A DNA stretch of 6,744 bases from Chloroflexota bacterium (lineage in GTDB: Bacteria > Chloroflexota > UBA6077 > CF-72). Location: contig JAFAWJ010000128.1 in the NCBI GenBank assembly GCA_019242065.1, positions 1-6,744 of the forward strand, written 5' to 3'. Below, piece by piece: positions 1 to 4,403 of this stretch; position 1 is the first letter of the stretch; every line of letters starts with the position of its first letter. Both the position numbers and the translations under genes were made by a program. Below the pieces are notes generated by a model. It did not search any database, was not told the origin of the DNA, and worked only from the letters and a program-made list of their open reading frames with translations.

Positions 1-114
1 CGTGTCGAAAAAGCCCAGACCCAGGTGCCGCGCCACCTCGAGGCCGACGCTGCTCTTGCCCGAGGCCGCCGGACCGTCGAGCGCGATCACATAGGGCGCT
101 GCCGACGCCGTCAC
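1..114 (-). CDS. cmk: Cytidylate kinase, N-terminal fragment (runs off the window edge)
   Basis: Cytidylate kinase phosphorylates CMP and dCMP with ATP in the cytoplasm and supplies CDP/dCDP for nucleic acid synthesis. Only the first 38 codons are present; the gene continues past base 1. Seen directly: after a short lead (VTASAAPY) comes IALDGPAASGKSS, a P-loop (Walker A) with GPAASGKSS at residues 14-22, then VARHLGLGFFDT, which matches the family's helix and the LD/FDTG stretch after the P-loop. The start is taken as GTG at 112-114, whose bases overlap the TGA of the preceding 20-codon frame (GTGA). A GGGAGG lies upstream but only one base from the start, too close for a normal ribosome binding site. 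An in-frame GTG at 130-132 would add six residues and lies inside the 59-bp repeat; a TAG at 145-147 closes the frame. It is the last gene visible in the rplS operon. Identity is firm; the exact start is less so. Confidence 0.9.
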   Translation of the reverse strand, partial: MTASAAPYVIALDGPAASGKSSVGLEVARHLGLGFFDT

Positions 115-173
115 GCCTCCCGGCCGACCCACGCCGCAGTCACGCTACCAACGCCGACCGACAGCCGCGTCAT
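111..173 (-). CDS. Candidate 20-codon mini-ORF 2, copy-encoded, directly before cmk
   Basis: This is an ATG-initiated frame of 20 codons plus TGA, in the second copy of the 59-bp repeat in transcription order. It starts MTRLSVGVGS and ends AAWVGREA. Its ATG overlaps the stop of mini-ORF 1 (ATGA) and its TGA overlaps the GTG of cmk (GTGA). It differs from mini-ORF 1 at three residues. The peptide resembles no family I know and has no clear signal or membrane segment. It may act only as a translational relay that delivers ribosomes from rluB to cmk, or it may be a by-product of the duplication with no function. Translation is an inference from the arrangement of starts and stops. Confidence 0.3.
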   Translation of the reverse strand: MTRLSVGVGSVTAAWVGREA

Positions 174-239
174 GCTTCCAGGCCGACCCACGCCGCAGTC
201 ACGCTAACAGCGCCGACCGACAGCCGCGTCATGCCTCCA
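122..239. repeat. Two tandem copies of a 59-bp unit between rluB and cmk
   Basis: Copy A is 122-180 and copy B is 181-239, adjacent with no spacer. Aligned base by base they differ at three of 59 positions (148/207, 151/210 and 176/235). Parts of a further copy are visible at each edge. The end of rluB carries CTGGAGGCATGA and the start of cmk carries CGGGAGGCGTGA, matching the CTGGAAGCATGA inside the array. As a result, start-like triplets at 230-232, 171-173 and 112-114 are exactly 59 bp apart. The unit is not a known insertion sequence; it looks like a small local duplication (minisatellite) at a stop/start overlap. Confidence 0.95.
170..232 (-). CDS. Candidate 20-codon mini-ORF 1, copy-encoded, directly after rluB
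   Basis: This is an ATG-initiated frame of 20 codons plus TGA, in the first repeat copy after rluB. It starts MTRLSVGAVS and ends AAWVGLEA. Its ATG (230-232) overlaps the rluB stop (229-231), and its own TGA (170-172) overlaps the ATG of mini-ORF 2. The last five residues, VGLEA, are also the last five residues of the rluB product, which fits descent of the repeat edge from the rluB 3' end. The GGAGG before the ATG is only one base away, so initiation would depend on ribosomes finishing rluB. No homolog is recognised. It may be a coupling device or a neutral product of the duplication. Confidence 0.3.
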   Translation of the reverse strand: MTRLSVGAVSVTAAWVGLEA

Positions 240-960
240 GCCCCACGGAGGCGCGCAGCGCGTCGACCTCGCGCGGGCGCAGCTCGCGATGCTGGCCGGC
301 GCGCAGCTCGCCCAGCAGCAACGGCCCGATCCTGATGCGCTGCAGCTCCTCGACCGCGCAGCCGACGGCCGCGAGCATGCGTCGCACCTGGCGCTGCCGG
401 CCGTCGACCAGCACTACACGGACGATGGCCTCGCGTTGTCCAGGCCTGACCAGTTGCGCGCGCACCGCGCGCGCCAGCCCATCCTCCAGCACCACGCCGT
501 GTCGCAGCTGATCCAGGTGTCGCTCGCCGAAATCCTGGCACGCGACGCGCACCTGGTACTCCTTCTCGATGCCGAAGCGAGCGTGCGTCAGCCGAAAGGT
601 CAGCTCGCCGTCGTCGGTAAGCAACACCAGTCCTTCCGAATCGATGTCCAGTCGACCGACGGGGTACACGCGGCGCGAGGCGTGCACCAGCTCGACCACC
701 GTCGGCCGGCCGTCGGGGTCGTGGGCGGTGCTGACCACGCCGAGCGGTTTGTTGAGGGCCAGATAGTGATGCGCGGTCTCGCCGCGATCGAGGGGTCGGC
801 CGTCGACCTCGATACGGTCGCGCGTCGGGTCGACCTGGGTGCCGAGCTCGACCACGAGCGCGCCGTTGACGCGCACGCGGCGGTCGCGGATCATCCGTTC
901 GGCGGCGCGGCGCGAGGCGACGCCGGCGTGCGCCAGGACTTTGTGGAGGCGCTCCTTCAC
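229..960 (-). CDS. rluB: rRNA pseudouridine synthase, RsuA/RluB family
   Basis: The product converts specific uridines of ribosomal RNA to pseudouridine. In bacteria with a single enzyme of this branch the target is usually in 23S rRNA (RluB type), but RsuA-type 16S activity cannot be excluded from sequence. It has 243 residues, a normal length. Residues 1-47 form an S4 RNA-binding domain (KVLAHAGVASRRAAERMI then VRVNG). The catalytic domain follows, with LNKPLGVVST at 69-78, YPVGRLDIDSEGLVLLTDDG at 99-118 with the catalytic aspartate at D105, and DGRQRQVRRM at 186-195. The last motif is usually written EGRNRQVRRM, so the asparagine is replaced by glutamine here. The start is GTG at 958-960, overlapping the yraN stop (GTGA). 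There is no Shine-Dalgarno sequence before it, which points to translational coupling. Its TGA overlaps the ATG of the first 20-codon repeat frame. Confidence 0.93.
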   Translation of the reverse strand: MKERLHKVLAHAGVASRRAAERMIRDRRVRVNGALVVELGTQVDPTRDRIEVDGRPLDRGETAHHYLALNKPLGVVSTAHDPDGRPTVVELVHASRRVYPVGRLDIDSEGLVLLTDDGELTFRLTHARFGIEKEYQVRVACQDFGERHLDQLRHGVVLEDGLARAVRAQLVRPGQREAIVRVVLVDGRQRQVRRMLAAVGCAVEELQRIRIGPLLLGELRAGQHRELRPREVDALRASVGLEA

Positions 961-1316
961 CAGGGGTAGACGCTCTGGAGGTGGTCGAAGCGGAGGACGT
1001 CGCCGTTGGTTTCGGTGACGATCAGGATGACGTCGATGCGGAAGGGGAGCTCCAGGAGGTCATTGTCCTGGGCGTAGGTAGTGAGCGCACGTACGACACG
1101 CGAGAGCTGCGCGTGACGCACACACTCCTCGGGCTGGACAAAGTCGGCGACGTCACGGGTTTTGACCTCGACCGCCACCAACTCCCCCTCGTGTTTGAGG
1201 ATGAGGTCAGCTTCGGCGTATTGAACGTGGTAGTTGCGCTCGAGCAGCTCGGCGCCCAGACCGACCAGGTACGCCTCCGCGAGACGTTCGCCACGTCGGC
1301 CAGTAACCAGGGTCAT
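957..1316 (-). CDS. yraN: YraN family (UPF0102) endonuclease-like protein
   Basis: A 119-residue protein of the UPF0102/YraN family, which has the fold of PD-(D/E)xK nucleases related to Holliday junction resolvases; its cellular substrate is not established. Seen: RRGERLAEAYLVGLGAELLERNY at the N-terminus, which matches the family's usual G.xGE..A..yL..Gy.il.rN opening, then AEADLIL (34-40) and LVAVEVKTR (46-54). D37, E50 and K52 match the conserved acidic and lysine positions. The canonical GEIDLI is AEADLI here, so the glycine and isoleucine differ while E35 and D37 are kept. FRIDVILI near the C-terminus is the usual last strand. It starts with ATG at 1314-1316, overlapping the rnhB stop (ATGA), with no ribosome binding site. 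The rnhB-yraN neighbourhood is common in bacteria. Confidence 0.88.
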   Translation of the reverse strand: MTLVTGRRGERLAEAYLVGLGAELLERNYHVQYAEADLILKHEGELVAVEVKTRDVADFVQPEECVRHAQLSRVVRALTTYAQDNDLLELPFRIDVILIVTETNGDVLRFDHLQSVYPW

Positions 1317-1996
1317 ACAAGGACAGGCACTTGGGCCTCCGCTTGGTCCAGTTGATCAATCAGGTCGTCGAAGGTTGTGGGTTGCAGCAGCATCAGCTTC
1401 ACGGAGCCGAAGCCCGTACGGTGAAAGGGGGTGATGCCATGCTCCCGCAAGCCCTGTCGGTGGCGGCTCGTGGCGTAGCCCACGTTCTGCTCCCACCCGT
1501 AGCCGGGGTAGCGCCGCGCCAGCTTGGCCATCAGCCGGTCGCGCGTGACCTTGGCCACGATCGAGGCGCTGGCAATCGCGTACGACAGCGCGTCGCCGTC
1601 GACCACCGTCGTATGCGGCCCGAGCTCGATATCGCGGATCGACAGCCCGTCGATCAGCGCGTGGTCACACGGCTGCACCCGCCGCAGCGCACGCCACATC
1701 GCCAGGTGCGAGGCATGGTAGATATTCAGCTGGTTGATCTCGCCCACGGACGCGGCGCCGACACCCACCGCCGCGGCGCGTTTGAGAATCTCGGGGTACA
1801 GCCGCTCCCGTTGTTGCAGTGACAGCGTCTTCGAGTCGCGCACGCCAGGGATCTTGCGGCAATACGGCTTCACCACCAGCGCCGCGGCCACCACTGGCCC
1901 GGCCAGGCACGCCATGCCAACTTCGTCCACACCCGCCACGCGGCGCGCTCCGGCTCGCCAGAGCGCCCATTCGCGCGCAAGCGTGGGGACAATCAC
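1313..1996 (-). CDS. rnhB: Ribonuclease HII
   Basis: RNase HII cuts RNA in RNA/DNA hybrids and starts removal of single ribonucleotides misincorporated into DNA. It has 227 residues, within the family's range. Seen: VAGVDEVG (20-27) with catalytic D24 and E25, [10 protein letters not shown] (30-39), DSKTLS (54-59), ALIDG (113-117) with D116, VDGDAL (132-137), and [11 protein letters not shown] (143-153). The C-terminal [14 protein letters not shown] and GITPFHR motifs are also present. The GRG motif after the DE pair, which reads the 2'-OH at the RNA-DNA junction in known structures, is GMA here (G27-M28-A29), a notable departure. The start is GTG at 1994-1996, overlapping the rplS stop (GTGA), and the stop overlaps the yraN start. 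The C-terminal 20 residues ([17 protein letters not shown]) are variable in the family. The identity is secure. Confidence 0.94.
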
Positions 1997-2573: not shown

Positions 2574-4403
2574 TCACAATTTTGGTTTGAGCGGCTTGGC
2601 GCGGCTGCCCGGCCGCCGACGCGCCGTGGCGGGCGCCGGGCGGCTACCCAGCCCGCCCGCCAGCCGCTTCGCCGCCGCCCGCAGCTCGGCCAGGCGTGCC
2701 GGCGGAAACTGGTGCTCGAGCCGCTCCATGAGCGCCGTCGAGCCCTCCAGCTCCGCCAGGCGCTCCGGCCACGCCAGCTGAAACGCCAGCAAGTTGACCA
2801 GCAGAAACTCCAGCACCTGTTCATCCACCAGGCCCGCGTAGGCGCTTTTCGCGTCCGCCGCCAGCCGCAACGCGGCGTCGACTCTCGGCAGGTGGCCGGA
2901 GGCCCGCAACGCCGCCGCCAGCTCCAGCGCATCGGCGGCCGCCACCTCGACCAGCGTCGGCGCGACCCGCCCGCGCACGAACGACCGCACGCGCTCGTCA
3001 CCCGCGACGGCGTCCACGTCACCCGCCGAGCGACCCTCCAGCAGCACCGCCGGACGGATCACCAGCGCCCCGAAACGCTGGTCCCAGACTCGCAAGCGCT
3101 CGTCGACCGCGTCCGGCACGTTCGCCTGCGTCAACTGGCCCAACAGCACACGGCAATCGTCGATCGAGCCGCCGCTCGCGAGCGCCGCGGCAACGTGCGC
3201 CTGGACCAGGTGATAGCGCGAGACCCGCGAGCGCTCGCGCAGGACCAGGTACTGTTCCGCGCGCAGCAGCGCCCCCAGCCGCGTGGTGGCCGGCGCCACC
3301 AGGTCGGCGACGCCCTCCCAGCGGCACGCTTCGGGCCCAGCGGCGCCCGCGCCGGATGTCCGCGTCCGGCGTGAGATCAGCTGCCCGTCACGGCTGGCGG
3401 CCACGACCCCCAGCCAGTACAGCGGTCCCAGCACCACGTAGCGCAGGAGCGCGGCCTCAACCTGCGACCAGCCGACCTCATGCAACGCCAGCAGCCCGCG
3501 GGGACTGAGCTGTTCGCGCACCAGCGTCGGGTGCCGCTGCCGCAGCCAATCGGACAAGGCATCCAGACGCAGCCAGCCGCCTTCGGGCAACTGCTCGACG
3601 ACCGCGGTGATCGCTCGGCGCACGCCGACGATGTCCACTAGCTCGGTCCCGTCGCGCGCTTCCGCCGGCACCTCGGCAATGCCAGCCTGCGCCATGTCCG
3701 ACCAGCTCGCGTCGCGCGCATACGCTCGCCAGGCACGATCGGCGACGGTCCGCGGATCGTCGAGCAGCCGCGGCAGGTGCGGCGCCGGCGCCAGGCCGCC
3801 ATCCGCGCGGTGCACCAGCCAGCCGGCCGACAGCGCCACGTGTCGCACGAAGCTCCATCGCGCGTCCCACGCCCAGCCGCCGGGCTCCTCCGACCAGCTG
3901 CGCACCTCCTCCTCGAGCTGGCCGCCGGGTCGAGTCAGGGCACTGACCAGTGTCAGCACGCTGAAGGCGGGATCGCTCCAGCGCGGCTCAGCCGGCACGG
4001 GTGCGTCGGCTGGAGGCATCGTCACGGGCTCGGCGGCCGGCAGCACCGCGAGCACCTCGTCTGGCACCACGTACACCTCGCCCCGCAGCGGGCCGCCCGC
4101 GGCAAACACGCGGTACAGCCAGCCACGGTTGGCCAGGTCTTCGGCGGCCCCGGGGTGGTCGCTATCCACCAGCAGGCCGCGCAGCTCGCCGGCCGACGCG
4201 CGGGCTGAGGTCAGCACCGAGCGTTCGGCGTCGGTCAGGCCGCGGGCCTGTTCGTCGAGATAGGTGGGCTCGGCGAGACGATCCGCGATGCGCGCGATCA
4301 ACTCGTCGCGCGTGGTGCCCTCGTCGTGCGCCAGCCCGTGCGCCTCGGCCACGCGGCGCAACGTCGCGGTGGCCGTTTCCTCGAGCGCCTCCGCCAGGCG
4401 CAC
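2574..4403 (-). CDS. Helicase-associated domain protein (XPB/Ssl2-like C3 type) without a motor domain
   Basis: A 609-residue protein, probably cytoplasmic and DNA-associated, of unknown role. Residues 12-44 (RRVAEAHGL then TTRDELIARIADRL) look like a SAP or Rho-N type nucleic acid-binding helical hairpin. Residues 56-120 (LTDAERSVL through WLYRVF to YVVPDEVLAVL) resemble a winged helix. Residues about 393-505 (RYHLVQAHVAAALASGGSID, then NVPDAVDERLRVWDQRFGAL) resemble the helicase C3/XPB-Ssl2-like associated domain. The C-terminus from 577 on is basic, rich in R, K, P and A, and ends LKPKL. No Walker A, DEAD/DEAH or other helicase motor motif is seen. The start is GTG at 4401-4403; a TAA lies in frame 12 bases upstream, so no earlier start is possible, and AAGG seven bases upstream is a weak ribosome binding site. 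It is separated from hppA by 117 nt and from rplS by 176 nt. The domain assignment is from residue patterns only. Confidence 0.75.
   Translation of the reverse strand: MRLAEALEETATATLRRVAEAHGLAHDEGTTRDELIARIADRLAEPTYLDEQARGLTDAERSVLTSARASAGELRGLLVDSDHPGAAEDLANRGWLYRVFAAGGPLRGEVYVVPDEVLAVLPAAEPVTMPPADAPVPAEPRWSDPAFSVLTLVSALTRPGGQLEEEVRSWSEEPGGWAWDARWSFVRHVALSAGWLVHRADGGLAPAPHLPRLLDDPRTVADRAWRAYARDASWSDMAQAGIAEVPAEARDGTELVDIVGVRRAITAVVEQLPEGGWLRLDALSDWLRQRHPTLVREQLSPRGLLALHEVGWSQVEAALLRYVVLGPLYWLGVVAASRDGQLISRRTRTSGAGAAGPEACRWEGVADLVAPATTRLGALLRAEQYLVLRERSRVSRYHLVQAHVAAALASGGSIDDCRVLLGQLTQANVPDAVDERLRVWDQRFGALVIRPAVLLEGRSAGDVDAVAGDERVRSFVRGRVAPTLVEVAAADALELAAALRASGHLPRVDAALRLAADAKSAYAGLVDEQVLEFLLVNLLAFQLAWPERLAELEGSTALMERLEHQFPPARLAELRAAAKRLAGGLGSRPAPATARRRPGSRAKPLKPKL

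Follow-up and report, generated by a model that had tools for sequence, protein, structure and literature searches.

Termination–reinitiation at ATGA or TGATG overlaps is a known mechanism of translational coupling, described in PMC6728339 and PMC10666635. Short upstream ORFs are also described as handing the ribosome to a coupled next gene (PMC12548453). The closest paradigms for the locus considered here are the mycobacterial MIRUs. According to the review PMC12548453, which cites Supply et al. (1997), these units appear to insert at start codons, with their own ORF coupled at −4 nt. The same review indicates that such insertion likely spares expression of the gene, and that MIRUs are found in many mycobacteria and appear to be mobile. 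In the senX3–regX3 spacer (MIRU04/ETR-D), a 77-bp unit occurs in one to seven copies, mostly together with one 53-bp unit (PMC2453075). The spacer is also reported to have promoter activity (PMC4213456), so arrays of this type should not too readily be taken to act in translation alone.

The window, a stretch of 6,744 nucleotides, carries a comparable arrangement on its minus strand. Short tandem units (59 bp × 2) lie between two co-directed genes, rluB and cmk. As in MIRUs, the unit length is 2 mod 3 and putative ORFs overlap their neighbours by 4 nt, here through three NTGA junctions in series. MIRUs are widespread and apparently mobile, whereas the rluB/cmk unit looks born from the local junction. 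By analogy the array would work like a MIRU; it is not filed as one: a search of 29 class genomes, capped at 30 candidates in some of them, showed no dispersed family, only weak matches. The likeness to classical termination–reinitiation is also close, since 4-nt overlaps of the ordinary kind form both the parent junction and those next to it and the proposed steps follow the known mechanism, but the rluB/cmk locus has three overlaps in series, connected by two minicistrons, rather than one. As with upstream ORFs, a tiny ORF would pass the ribosome on to the next gene; the difference is that two copies are present, from a tandem duplication inside an operon. The preliminary description knew of no described minisatellite that is neutral to coupling in this way. 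That statement was wrong, as mycobacterial MIRUs are coupled at −4 nt and both 77 and 53 leave 2 on division by 3, as 59 does. A literature search for rluB together with cytidylate kinase returned no paper with both terms, a faint hint that the array locus itself is not in print.

The genes flanking the array belong to a compact series, all on the minus strand. The upstream gene (229..960, stop TGA at 231–229) encodes an rluB-type rRNA pseudouridine synthase with S4 and PseudoU_synth_2 domains (Pfam PF00849, PF01479). It scores 153.9 bits against TIGR00093, above cut-off, and 139 bits against the RluB equivalog model, below that model's cut-off of 290. Its nearest relatives in the RluB comparison are from Chloroflexota MAGs. 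The downstream gene is the 5′ part of cmk, encoding (d)CMP kinase: 38 codons (1..114) from a GTG start at 114–112, continuing beyond the window. This fragment matches TIGR00017 (E 2.2e-7) and PF02224 (E 6.2e-8); the TIGR00017 score is below the full-length cut-off because only 38 amino acids are present. Upstream of rluB lie yraN (957..1316; best YraN model, E 4.4e-24), rnhB, encoding ribonuclease HII (1313..1996), and rplS, encoding ribosomal protein L19 (1993..2454; TIGR01024, E 2.2e-38). The listed start of rplS may be too far upstream; the TIGR01024 match begins at residue 31. Overlaps of 4 nt, absent from the preliminary description, join rplS to rnhB, rnhB to yraN, and yraN to rluB. Within positions 1–1000 of the window there are no terminator-like sites, and the only promoter-like match (866–894) lies on the opposite strand and at a distance from the array. 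A 609-residue open frame at 2574–4403, also on the minus strand, matches nothing in NCBIfam or Pfam at E 0.001.

The array occupies positions 109..240 on the minus strand (period 59, two units; TRF score 229). In the best registers, for example 240–182 against 181–123, its copies agree at 56/59 positions; compared ATG to ATG, they agree at 55/59. The 59-bp repeat is not a chance match. Three NTGA junctions are spaced exactly 59 bp apart, at 232–229 (GGAGGCATGA, the rluB stop), 173–170 (GGAAGCATGA) and 114–111 (GGAGGCGTGA). These delimit two putative relay minicistrons of 20 codons each, identified from sequence and frame. The first (170..232, minus strand, MTRLSVGAVSVTAAWVGLEA) begins with an ATG that overlaps the rluB stop and ends with a TGA that overlaps the next ATG. 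The second (111..173, minus strand, MTRLSVGVGSVTAAWVGREA) ends with a TGA that overlaps the cmk GTG. Sequence, frames and TRF thus bear out the earlier observation of a 59-bp repeat with stop/start overlaps at 59-bp intervals. The arithmetic attached to it also holds: because 59 is 2 mod 3, gain or loss of whole units preserves the stop/start chain. A 30-bp period, missed previously, is also detected (TRF score 137). Each 59-bp unit consists of a 30-bp and a 29-bp half, diverged from each other and both containing an RTGAC core; the halves are 77–80% alike to each other and 93–97% alike between units. RTGA words lie at 232, 202, 173, 143 and 114, with spacings of 30, 29, 30 and 29. GTG 202 and GTG 143 each lie in frame within a relay, and stop/start sites are therefore formed by only every second RTGA. 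The array RNA folds no better than shuffled versions of itself (z −1.12), of which 26 in 200 do as well, and an Rfam search of the window gave no family at gathering score.

The distance between rluB and cmk bears directly on how Cmk could be translated. The cmk frame opens 84 nt after the rluB stop and is closed upstream of 144, and its only possible starts are GTG 114 and an in-frame GTG at 132–130. A start is found within a few nucleotides of the upstream stop at all three relay steps; directly from the rluB stop to cmk this is not the case, the gap being 96 nt (GTG 132) or 114 nt (GTG 114). Huber et al. describe coupling as nearly abolished at gaps of about 20 nt, and for three gene pairs of E. 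coli 80–100% of coupling was lost at 38 nt (PMC10666635). Longer gaps are also on record: in a synthetic bicistron ribosomes reinitiated across 73 nt (work cited in PMC10666635), and phage f1 genes are coupled at +62 nt (review PMC12548453). The cmk starts lie too far away for direct coupling in most published tests, so ribosomes would reach cmk from rluB most economically through a relay of two minicistrons.

The origin of the array can be approached through 11 genome loci with an RluB relative (L001–L011). The closest are L001, L002 and L003, with RluB identities to the window of 92%, 84% and 77%. The preliminary description had proposed comparing copy numbers of the repeat in close relatives, and the outcome of that comparison is mixed. 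L001 and L002 have zero copies and a direct 4-nt rluB/cmk overlap (GTGA or ATGA), and supply a clean zero-copy comparison. L003 has another insertion of its own, of about 100 bp, at the same junction. There, the rluB stop contains the start of a 28-codon frame that has an 8-nt overlap with a possible cmk GTG (6802); cmk also has open starts that are nearer, GTG 6736 among them, and the insertion matches itself at 20/24 bases at a 45-bp lag. The array interior aligns to the rluB tail and junction of L001 over 37 columns, and none of 2000 dinucleotide shuffles scores as high; against the L002 junction, 23 of 2000 score as well. Given the match to L001, a duplication of the rluB/cmk junction itself is the best reading of the array, and on the simplest view it would have occurred after the split from L001. 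More widely, the cmk P-loop motif lies within 840 nt of the rluB stop in 20 of the 28 class genomes with an RluB match, and 9 of these 20, as judged by eye, have rluB overlapping cmk directly at −4, in the frame of cmk. A viral origin was considered and rejected, the 22-base unit start having no exact match in viral contigs.

The reading we favour, with a probability of about 0.62, is a local duplication of the junction in one Chloroflexota-like lineage that was tolerated, that likely acts as a relay and that needs no dedicated function. The following steps are proposed. (i) The junction, made of the rluB end and the cmk start with their 4-nt overlap, would have been duplicated first as a unit of about 30 bp and later as a 59-bp double unit. 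(ii) One stop/start overlap would thereby have become three in series, and the change would have been tolerated because the rluB end and the cmk start remained intact and the length is 2 mod 3. (iii) Ribosomes ending rluB would restart at ATG 232 and produce a 20-residue peptide. (iv) A second restart at ATG 173 would yield a second 20-residue peptide. (v) The last restart, at GTG 114, would give Cmk. We infer that this relay is actually translated. Each added relay step would, if anything, cost some Cmk, and the array is probably an accident that is nearly neutral to selection. A duplicated NTGA junction of this kind would illustrate a route to a MIRU-like coupled spacer that needs no mobile element.

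The relay arithmetic is close to chance, and the property is not very surprising. Random tandem duplications of 15–120 bp (20,000 at each junction) were simulated at the repeat-free sister junctions of L001 and L002. A perfect relay was rebuilt in 32.8% and 32.6% of these, respectively, and an in-frame longer Cmk in 22.5% and 33.7%; of the duplications with length 2 mod 3, 98.6–99.4% gave a perfect relay. A duplication that contains the overlap always rebuilds it, so only the frame matters. Under this null model about one-third of such duplications keep the chain at no cost, and a stop/start relay in a repeat is therefore by itself no evidence of design. Relays through mini-ORFs in the relatives were also examined as a possible signal and rejected. 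Chains to the next called gene follow 25/482 NTGA stops versus 31/471 CTGA stops, the latter a control in which the first relay step would need a CTG start, so there is no enrichment after NTGA. An earlier count with other limits and without the control had given 29/487. Direct overlaps number 130 at NTGA stops versus 43 at CTGA. Mini-ORF relays thus occur at chance rate in relatives, and the mere presence of one does not point to selection.

These rates also lend some weight to a less likely alternative, in which coupling has been lost or bypassed, ribosomes initiate on cmk independently, at GTG 114 (or 132), and duplication of an NTGA junction left the 20-codon frames as a by-product that is not translated. 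Relays at chance level in relatives, and an arithmetic that arises in a third of random duplications, are as this alternative would have it. Potential ribosome-binding words are present too: GGGAGG before GTG 114 and GGAGG before ATG 232 pair strongly with the anti-Shine–Dalgarno sequence (−10.3 kcal/mol for GGGAGG at GTG 114). However, these words stand 1 nt from the start, GGAGG doing so at both ATG 232 and GTG 114, and this spacing is too short for a usual Shine–Dalgarno interaction. GGAGG coincides with RluB tail codons; L002 has only GAGG and L003 has no such word, so that the word resembles coding sequence of the RluB tail. The upstream operon, moreover, is joined by 4-nt overlaps. No strong Shine–Dalgarno word lies 5–9 nt before the internal starts of rnhB, yraN or rluB; rnhB has AGGGG further upstream.

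The rluB/cmk junction seems often to gain or lose short sequence, and the window would represent one outcome. Three observations on Cmk relatives suggest this. In a survey of the N-termini of the 120 best Cmk relatives, 118 of which were scored for P-loop distance, the number of residues before the P-loop motif ranges from 3 to 81, the shortest being possibly truncated. Short in-frame repeats precede the P-loop in P0176 (QPFPITDP), P0237 (EPGQATQ-like), and P0132 and P0138 (TSTSTS), and P0223 has WPPxLELxR twice, 15 residues apart, of which one full copy occurs in L003. Finally, the metagenome protein P0253 holds RluB and Cmk in a single 469-residue chain, which may be a genuine fusion or may come from a sequencing error. 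The second residue of Cmk can be encoded by an A-starting codon in 108/120 relatives (57 Ser, 32 Thr, 11 Asn, 6 Lys, 1 Arg, 1 Ile), which fits the demand of an NTGA overlap for such a codon, with the caveat that Ser and Arg also have other codons and that the start choice comes from gene callers.

Under a rival reading of selected tuning, the 59-bp copy number would set the Cmk : RluB ratio through one reinitiation loss per copy, and slippage could vary it within the population with coupling intact. Whole-unit changes do preserve the chain, the senX3–regX3 MIRU spacer is described with 1 to 7 copies and units of 77 and 53 bp (PMC2453075), and in-frame repeat differences occur at the same place in a related lineage (L003 versus P0223). 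This proposal, raised in the preliminary description, is nevertheless unsupported and very improbable, as the array is absent from the two nearest relatives and its copies differ by substitutions, so that no recent homogenizing turnover is visible. Also very improbable is a MIRU-like mobile unit that came from another site in the genome and landed on the cmk start codon: the architecture is the same as that of a MIRU, and related genomes carry a dispersed motif, GCGTGACGCTTTT, that also holds GTGA, but the array matches the local junction, its core is resembled by only 1 of 55 direct overlaps in three of these genomes (G001–G003), and the 29 class genomes, in some of which no more than 30 candidates were scored, gave only weak matches (best E 0.0022, 76% over about 51 bp), one of them the orthologous junction of G001.

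The favoured reading, a tolerated local duplication, invites a broader and rather doubtful proposal, that duplication of stop/start junctions is a recurrent route in bacteria by which MIRU-like, self-coupled minicistron chains are born, later to serve as a coupling-safe copy-number dial. If this were true, nearly any 2 mod 3 duplication would make a minicistron chain in one stroke, and later changes in copy number would act as a graded dial on the downstream gene that leaves coupling intact. A first scan for junction duplications covered 2.10 Mb (the class genomes and the window) and L001–L011. The clearest further case is at L189 (8926–8980, minus strand; G019:C123), where a 17-bp unit is present three times between a MutS-domain gene and an MFS gene. 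Every copy rebuilds TGATG, giving two 5-codon relays, and 17 is again 2 mod 3. This array differs from that at rluB/cmk in its 1-nt overlap type, its genes and its sequence, and is presumably of independent origin. At L062 (4476–4547; G001:C6), a 37-bp duplication spans a gene stop; its length is 1 mod 3 and the last copy opens no gene frame. Duplications at L105 (35 bp) and L108 (38 bp, also listed at 76) are relay-forming and 2 mod 3, and were dropped because the upstream ORFs have weak coding signal. A scan of viral contigs (1.40 Mb) yielded L203, with 24 bp (0 mod 3), in-frame. When both genes had to be called and the repeat limits were loosened (L050–L189, L198–L277), only L189 remained. 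The junction duplications found are far too few to test for bias in length mod 3.

Other repeated sequence was seen around these loci. In L003, between cmk and a radical-SAM-type gene (TIGR03279-like, below cut-off), positions 7506–7628 hold a 40-codon frame built partly of GTGACG repeats of about 12 bp; its ATG overlaps the cmk stop and its end reads ATGATG at the next gene. A dispersed motif is centred on the pseudo-palindrome GCGTGACGC; TTTT follows it at some sites, and here and there it recurs every 21 bp. Sites lie at 2505–2564 in the window, 1879–1960 in L002, 2699–2754 in L110, 3409–3555 in L129 and 4274–4309 in L003/L149, the L149 cluster falling inside a called ORF. A link between the array and this motif was considered and is unsupported (1/55 overlaps). 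The 13-mer GCGTGACGCTTTT, chosen after the clusters were seen, has 8 occurrences in G001, 11 in G002 and 5 in G003, and a single one across the remaining 26 class genomes; a rearranged control occurs 0, 1 and 0 times in G001, G002 and G003. The GCGTGACGC motif may be a lineage-specific operator or a small repeat family. GCGTSACGC sites lie between called genes in 11 of 15 cases in G002, 5 of 14 in G003 and 5 of 17 in G001, and the word ranks first among 64 like palindromes in G002 and G003 and seventh in G001.
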